Below the pieces are notes generated by a model, which had not been told where the DNA came from, searched no databases, and saw only the letters and a program-made list of their open reading frames with translations. Shown one piece after another: positions 51,548 through 52,389 of a stretch of DNA of 64,000 bases. The DNA lies in contig NZ_CP040330.1 of NCBI RefSeq assembly GCF_005576615.1, positions 1,364,001-1,428,000 of the forward strand. Direction: 5' to 3'. The position numbers and the translations under genes are program-made. Within the stretch, counting starts at the first letter, position 1; the number at the start of each line of letters is the position of its first letter. This stretch comes from Natrinema versiforme (lineage in GTDB: Archaea > Halobacteriota > Halobacteria > Halobacteriales > Natrialbaceae).

Positions 51548-51841
51548 ATGAGTGCGACCGAACCCGACCGCGAGATCGACGAGGCCGCCGAGTCCGGCGA
51601 GAGTAGCGGCGACGACGGGACCGGCGACGGAACGCTCGCCGAACTCCCGCCCAGCGCGAAACTGGTCTACAAGGTCCTCGAGTACGAGGCCCCGCTGACA
51701 CAGGAGGGGATCGCGGCCGAGTCCCGACTGTGTCCCCGGACCGTTCGCTACGCGCTCGGCAAGTTAGCGGATCAGGACCTCGTCACCAGCCGGGTCTGTC
51801 TCGAGGACGCCCGACAGTCGAAGTATCGGCTCGCCGAGTGA
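51548..51841 (+). CDS. MarR-type winged-helix regulator
   Basis: 97 residues. An acidic, Gly-rich leader of about 35 residues is followed by LPPSAKLVYKVLEYEAPLTQ, EGIAAESRLCPRTVRYALGKL and DQDLVTSRVCLEDARQSKYRL: one winged helix with the recognition helix in the second segment. Related to TrmB/MarR-like haloarchaeal proteins. No ligand domain, so partner binding or constitutive DNA binding is likely. It is the gene upstream of a structured intergenic region. Confidence 0.85.
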   Translation: MSATEPDREIDEAAESGESSGDDGTGDGTLAELPPSAKLVYKVLEYEAPLTQEGIAAESRLCPRTVRYALGKLADQDLVTSRVCLEDARQSKYRLAE

Positions 51842-51890
51842 GTTTCACGTCGCATTCGAGCGGCCCGCCGTACTCCGACCTGCAGAATCC

Positions 51891-51904
51891 ATTAGTTATA
51901 AGAC
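51891..51904 (+). promoter_or_regulatory. Promoter-like TATA box of the candidate small RNA
   Basis: ATTAGTTATAAGAC, centred about 27 bp before the first stem base at 51926. Confidence 0.5.
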
Positions 51905-51925
51905 ACTAACGAGCCGACATTTAGG

Positions 51926-52061
51926 TGGAAGTCAGCTCCAACGAGCGAGGGGGCATGCGTTGAAATGCCCCGGGTGATAGGACACCCGAGACTGGCTTCC
52001 AAGCCATTCCCGGCTTTGCAAGCCATGTTGCACTTGTTCCTACCGAGACATAAACGTCTCG
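51926..52061 (+). ncRNA. Candidate structured small RNA
   Basis: TGGAAGTCAG (51926-51935) can pair with CTGGCTTCCA (51992-52001), a 10-bp stem with one G-U. It encloses GGGGCAT-GCGTTGAA-ATGCCCC (about 51951-51972 region) and GGGTG-ATAGGA-CACCC (about 51972-51987). Downstream are GGCTT-TGC-AAGCC (52012-52024) and CGAGAC-ATAAAC-GTCTCG (52044-52061). The element has its own TATA box. TGATAG with GAGA suggests a possible kink-turn and ACATAA a possible ACA box, so an H/ACA guide RNA is one hypothesis. No tRNA, 5S, SRP or RNase P signature is present. Confidence 0.5.
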
Positions 52062-52146
52062 CACGACGACAGTATCGCGTTCGAACATCGAGCAGACGCC
52101 AGTGGTCACACCGTGGGCCGGTCCCCGCTCGCAGTGGGAGGGACGG

Positions 52147-52389
52147 ATGAGCGACGACACTGAGCCGTCCGCCGATTCTGAGTCATCCGCGGACGACGAA
52201 CTCACGCTCGACGGCGACTCGATCGCTGCGAACACCTCACAGACGGGACGACAACCGGTCCGCTGTCCGCGCTGTGACGCGCCCATCGCGCTGGTCGTGA
52301 GCTACGGCCCTACGACCCACGAGGCCAGCCCCTGCGGCTGTCGCGTTCCCGGCAACCTCCTCGAGCGGAGCGGCGACGGCTCCGAGTGA
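52147..52389 (+). CDS. Small zinc-binding protein
   Basis: 80 residues. The first ~40 are Ser/Asp/Glu-rich and disordered; the rest carries CPRCDAPIALVV and, 17 residues on, PCGCRVPG, a compact Cys3-4 metal site. It ends in ERSGDGSE. ATG 52147 is chosen over an in-frame codon at 52102 that overlaps the structured RNA. No family recalled. Lies downstream of the candidate small RNA and could be translated from the same transcript. Confidence 0.6.
   Translation: MSDDTEPSADSESSADDELTLDGDSIAANTSQTGRQPVRCPRCDAPIALVVSYGPTTHEASPCGCRVPGNLLERSGDGSE

Follow-up and report, generated by a model that had tools for sequence, protein, structure and literature searches.

A putative bistable 5' leader with mutually exclusive helices precedes overlapping basic-peptide and zinc-microprotein genes in haloarchaea

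In the 64,000-nucleotide stretch of DNA analyzed here (the window), positions 51923 to 52024 are likely to be the folded 5' leader of a two-gene mRNA with its own TATA promoter. The sequence predicts two helices, P1 and P4, which are mutually exclusive because the 3' strand of P1 (strand b) also pairs with a strand ending at an AUG; both helices covary across several haloarchaeal families. We think it probable, to the same degree, that the leader is bistable and switches translation of a small upstream open reading frame (uORF) and, through coupling, of a zinc microprotein. The features of the locus are as follows.

51548-51841, forward strand: winged-helix-like ORF directly upstream of the leader, scoring below Pfam cut-offs
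51888-51902, forward strand: promoter as read from the sequence, TCCATTAG plus TATA box TTATAAG (51896-51902)
51923-52024, forward strand: structured 5' leader (putative switch domain), P1 to P4
51926-51935, forward strand: strand a of P1, a 10-bp stem with 51992-52001 that closes a 76-nt domain (51926-52001)
51950-51971, forward strand: hairpin P2 (stem 51951-51956/51965-51970), inside the 76-nt domain
51971-51988, forward strand: hairpin P3 (stem 51971-51976/51983-51988, 6-nt loop), inside the 76-nt domain
51992-52002, forward strand: common strand b, partner of a (P1) or of c (P4)
52016-52025, forward strand: strand c of P4 (51993-52002/52016-52025), its last base being the A of the AUG
52025-52150, forward strand: conserved basic uORF, 41 aa, MLHLFLPRHKRLARRQYR..., starting at the AUG that ends P4
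52044-52061, forward strand: hairpin P5 (stem 52044-52049/52056-52061), within the uORF
52137-52141, forward strand: GGAGG, from its sequence a possible Shine-Dalgarno motif for reinitiation at the microprotein AUG
52147-52389, forward strand: zinc microprotein, 80 aa, CPRC...PCGC, with an ATGA overlap between its start and the uORF stop

The original prediction described a TATA box at 51896, a 10-bp stem closing a 76-nt domain with two internal hairpins, and two further hairpins; all of these are present. Its view that the region encodes a structured RNA with its own promoter agrees with the TATA box, with a folding z-score of -4.15 for the leader region (0 of 200 shuffles were equally stable), and with the many BLAST matches in relatives given below. 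As it also proposed, the RNA does not appear to be a tRNA, 5S, SRP, or RNase P RNA: Rfam gave no match at the gathering score in the window and none even at E<=5 in 51860-52160, and the tRNA scan was empty. New to that description are the use of strand b by both P1 and P4, the ORF from 52025, and the position of P5 within this ORF. A descriptor of P1+P2+P3+P4-ATG, its thresholds chosen with the family already seen, matched once in the window (both strands), exactly at the leader, and not at all in five Markov shuffles.

Both helices that use strand b are conserved as pairings. Among 30 copies, 96% of cells are paired in P1 (a:b) and 92% in P4 (b:c), and in 39 leaders drawn from several families, whose alignment was trimmed and fitted to the structure, changes on both sides were seen at 10/10 pairs of P1, 6/6 of P2, and 7/8 of P4. 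Taken as sets in the same alignment, P1+P2+P3 has such changes at 20 of 22 pairs and P2+P3+P4 at 17 of 20, each matched by 0 of 500 shuffles. Strand swapping among 23 distant leaders, a test independent of column alignment, gave P1 an own sum of 580, and none of 5000 permutations exceeded 472; for P4 the own sum was 406 against at most 345, with start codons chosen by eye as those after strand c, a choice that favors P4 somewhat. The original prediction had named a 10-bp stem lacking compensatory changes as its refutation; such changes occur at all 10 pairs, and strand swapping agrees. Distant loci retrieved with covariance model R2, which comprises P2, P3, P4, and P5 and holds neither the P1 pairing nor the promoter, nonetheless show P1, in differing sequences. 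Automatic parsing succeeded for 42 of 44 hand-chosen leaders from distant and closer loci, the exceptions being L094 and L106. The third pair of P5 is compensatory in 97 of 107 copies (A-U in 40, G-C in 57; 18:12 in the 30-copy set). Outside the loops of P2 and P3, strongly conserved unpaired bases are few.

Many haloarchaeal mRNAs are leaderless. Here the string TCCARTAG..TATAAG was found again in most of the 30 aligned copies, and a TATA-like string lies 25-32 nt 5' of strand a in 39 of the 42 parsed leaders (two candidates or more in L097 and L111); our motif list recognized none in the other three, L096, L100, and L108. The spacing is mostly the same in the distant loci found with R2. Because of this spacing, the RNA probably starts just 5' of strand a, near 51922-51926. 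Palindromic repeats surround the TATA box in L104, L105, and L385 (e.g., CCATTAGACATACGACTAATGG in L104) and may be operators.

That the region might be a cis-acting leader of the gene at 52147 was one option of the original prediction, and this is the one that the surrounding sequence favors. The uORF is present at 109 loci. At 104 of these the leader continues directly into the conserved basic uORF and an ORF with the cysteine motif of the zinc microprotein, and at these 104 the two ORFs overlap or lie a few bases apart, as in translationally coupled pairs: the offset between uORF stop and second start is +1 (ATGA) in 65, +5 in 29, +8 in 7, and another value in 3. Over 4050 codons the uORF frame shows 0 stops, compared with 121 and 124 for the remaining frames; loci were chosen as open to a nearby stop, so that the absence of stops is partly by construction, whereas the consistent overlap is not. 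At codons 2, 4, and 5 hydrophobic residues are kept and the bases vary, and codons 8-14 hardly change, synonymous sites included, which fits hairpin P5; past about residue 18 the peptide is poorly conserved. We also considered the whole leader as coding (ORF 51965-52150) and rejected this, as the copies differ ahead of the AUG by indels whose lengths are not divisible by three, which breaks the frame.

From the overlapping ATGA, translation of the zinc microprotein may be coupled to that of the uORF by termination-reinitiation. Coupling at ATGA gene pairs has been tested in Haloferax, where dependence of the second ORF on the first was shown for other pairs (PMC6728339). The Haloferax volcanii pairs have the same stop-start overlap; here a GGAGG also precedes the second start, a structured leader stands before the first gene, which encodes a basic peptide, and the coupling is predicted.

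CPxC and PCGC are invariant in 34 microprotein sequences, giving the two paired-cysteine motifs of a zinc-ribbon microprotein, and these motifs suggest zinc binding. No Pfam, NCBIfam, or PHROGs family reached its cut-off for the microprotein, and a structure search with its AlphaFold model, which has a small confident beta core (pLDDT about 90), gave no match at E<=0.001. The C(P)XCG zinc-finger microproteins of Haloferax volcanii are likewise small, with two cysteine-pair motifs (PMC6562870, PMC10716476, PMC11241148); the family described here is likened to them by motif only and differs in its pattern (CPxC...GP..PCGC), in having its own leader, and in reaching no Pfam or NCBIfam cut-off. 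PMC11241148 reports that several of the Haloferax proteins do not bind zinc. In our judgment, the RNA and the microprotein are new relative to Rfam 15, Pfam, NCBIfam, and the open-access literature, subscription papers being outside the search.

A BLAST search with 301 bases gave about 145 matches, distributed over 20 of 41 close genomes that all belong to the window's genus, with up to 18 per genome, and the first 30 copies, once oriented, all lie upstream of one zinc microprotein family. Of 194 genomes in the class, 58 were listed with matches to R2: 37 of the 50 in the window's family and 21 from others (a per-genome count of 15 means at least 15). In each of 18 genomes that were searched again, 16 of which belong to other families in the same order, R2 matched at E<=0.01. 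The trimmed model R3 is less sensitive than R2, and its low tally is not a distribution. By organism name, a separate scan placed leader matches in Natrinema, Natrialba, Natronorubrum, Halopiger, Halovivax, and Natronoglomus. Seven clear microprotein genes, all of them adjoining a leader match, occur in the window's genome, along with a weak eighth match in a long frame. Nine genomes of the window's family in which no leader was matched are also without the microprotein, and four others with no leader match have one or two microprotein genes each; in three of these four the copies read (L375, L377, and L380) had no leader recognizable by eye, and the same holds for copy L376.

The genes after the leader vary. 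Genus g21 has this leader and a related basic ORF (..RQKGLAR..) ahead of another kind of zinc protein, and there, too, the genes overlap. In other families, PadR (E 7.5e-16) is among the first ORFs after the leader, as are a SWIM-like protein that stays under the cut-off (E 0.0036), small cysteine proteins, and ORFs that carry no zinc motif. The leader lies before genes annotated as SWIM on Haladaptatus plasmids, and the isolated virus HJTV-4, whose host is Natrinema thermotolerans A29, carries it (R2 E 1e-4) before gp35, a small cysteine protein whose gene overlaps gp34 at its end (L385 2363-2639). A plasmid search with the window's own sequence matched 13 records, and a phage BLAST with that sequence gave no match. 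Viral pattern scans yielded mostly chance matches; L361, L365, and L250 kept the architecture.

Several further loci were recorded in passing. In L104, L105, L106, and L108, the leader is followed by a cysteine-motif ORF, and in L104 and L106 the next ORF has a GGARNFGAG motif reminiscent of Cas7/RAMP proteins; the L104 ORF pair had no Pfam, NCBIfam, or PADLOC match, and PADLOC returned nothing for three ORFs. Genome G203, from another family, has ten leader matches (L095, L112, and L116-L123), nine of which share an ORF, MKGITLRYCNPVVSS..., that runs into a cysteine motif (CARCGQPVARPRAHATGCPSW in L095); L123 differs.

The mechanism that we propose has two states. In state 1, a:b pairing (P1) would enclose P2 and P3 in a three-way junction right at the 5' end and leave the uORF start codon free; in state 2, b:c pairing (P4), a helix ending at the AUG, should block initiation. 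P1 would thus be ON and P4 OFF, and control would be translational rather than transcriptional. The trigger that would shift the P1/P4 balance, and with it translation of the basic ORF, could be a ligand, an ion, or a protein, for instance the zinc protein encoded here, and the overlapping ATGA could relay the shift to the zinc microprotein by termination-reinitiation. In Haloferax, hairpins that mask the AUG can control translation, and a synthetic riboswitch of this kind works there (PMC8241225). Predicted energies of the two states are close, with a median P1-P4 difference of -2.8 kcal/mol and a wide spread, and the folding program strongly prefers one state in some members (L119, -14.8 kcal/mol; L097, +10.8 kcal/mol); the calculation assumes 37°C and does not model molar KCl.

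As to the trigger, one of the two encoded products, the upstream peptide or the zinc microprotein, may bind the junction or P5 and repress its own translation. This autoregulation is a special case of the bistable leader that names its trigger, so our estimates for the two overlap; we regard it as a tentative proposal, well short of an even chance. The leader stands repeatedly before small zinc proteins from unrelated families, P5 is conserved as RNA inside an ORF, and weak Foldseek matches of the zinc-ribbon model, none significant, are mostly ribosomal proteins; against it, PadR and SWIM genes follow the leader as well, as do ORFs that lack a zinc motif. Autoregulatory leaders of ribosomal-protein genes, among them the S15 candidate of haloarchaea (PMC7247131), are likewise cis-acting, found in Halobacteria, and maybe protein-bound, whereas the genes here are not ribosomal and the leader has no Rfam match.

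Slightly more doubtful is that the leader represents a natural ligand- or ion-sensing class of translational riboswitch in haloarchaea, spread by plasmids and viruses and present in more than 10 copies per Natrialbaceae genome before basic-peptide/zinc-microprotein operons. A structured 5' leader with exclusive helices at the site of expression, by which a riboswitch would be recognized, is found here. Small-molecule aptamers usually have more conserved unpaired bases; because few such bases are strongly conserved in this leader, a classical small-molecule aptamer is somewhat disfavored, which leaves room for control by a protein or an ion. Like translational riboswitches, the leader is a folded 5' element in which alternative pairing can expose or hide a start codon; unlike them, it stands before genes for zinc microproteins and genes of mobile elements. 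PMC8241225 names the Thermococcus kodakarensis fluoride riboswitch as the sole natural archaeal riboswitch determined experimentally as of 2021; the present leader differs from it in fold, in having no known ligand, in being haloarchaeal, and in having no Rfam match.

A static leader, in which P1-P2-P3 protects the 5' end or fixes the translation level and P4 is a mere start-codon hairpin, is unlikely. It would account for the frequent energetic preference for one state, for the scarcity of conserved unpaired bases, and for the lack of a known ligand or regulator, yet b:a and b:c are both kept complementary by covariation, and a fixed structure needs just one of them. Less likely still is a mobile or selfish module, e.g., one resembling a toxin-antitoxin system, in which an RNA would control a basic peptide and an acidic zinc protein; the many scattered copies per genome, carriage by plasmids and a virus, and overlapping small genes of opposite charge point that way, but many unrelated genes follow the leader, the upstream peptide is poorly conserved beyond about residue 18, and at least one copy appears syntenic between two genomes (L001/L002).

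The main proposal of the original prediction, a separate small RNA gene, does not hold up well. A trans-acting RNA upstream of the zinc gene by chance would have its own promoter and a compact fold, as seen here, and processing could free the 5' domain; however, nearly all recognized Natrialbaceae copies run into the same conserved ORF pair, and in distant families, too, the architecture ends at an AUG, so we give this reading very little weight. An H/ACA guide RNA, suggested by two hairpins and the string ACATAA, is almost certainly wrong, as the TGATAG of the supposed kink-turn is not conserved in the 30-copy alignment, the ACA string lies in ORF codons in the P5 loop and is replaced by ATATAA in some copies, and Rfam has no match.

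For gene catalogs, the finding bears on two of the 13 plasmid records, whose gene tables, stated to be incomplete, list no gene at the match and lack the two small genes. It links a set of zinc microproteins to one common mode of expression. If the bistable leader is real, archaea would have in it a widespread class of riboswitch-like elements, and haloarchaea would gain an RNA-based control layer of their own, common to chromosomes, plasmids, and viruses, with a test system ready at hand.
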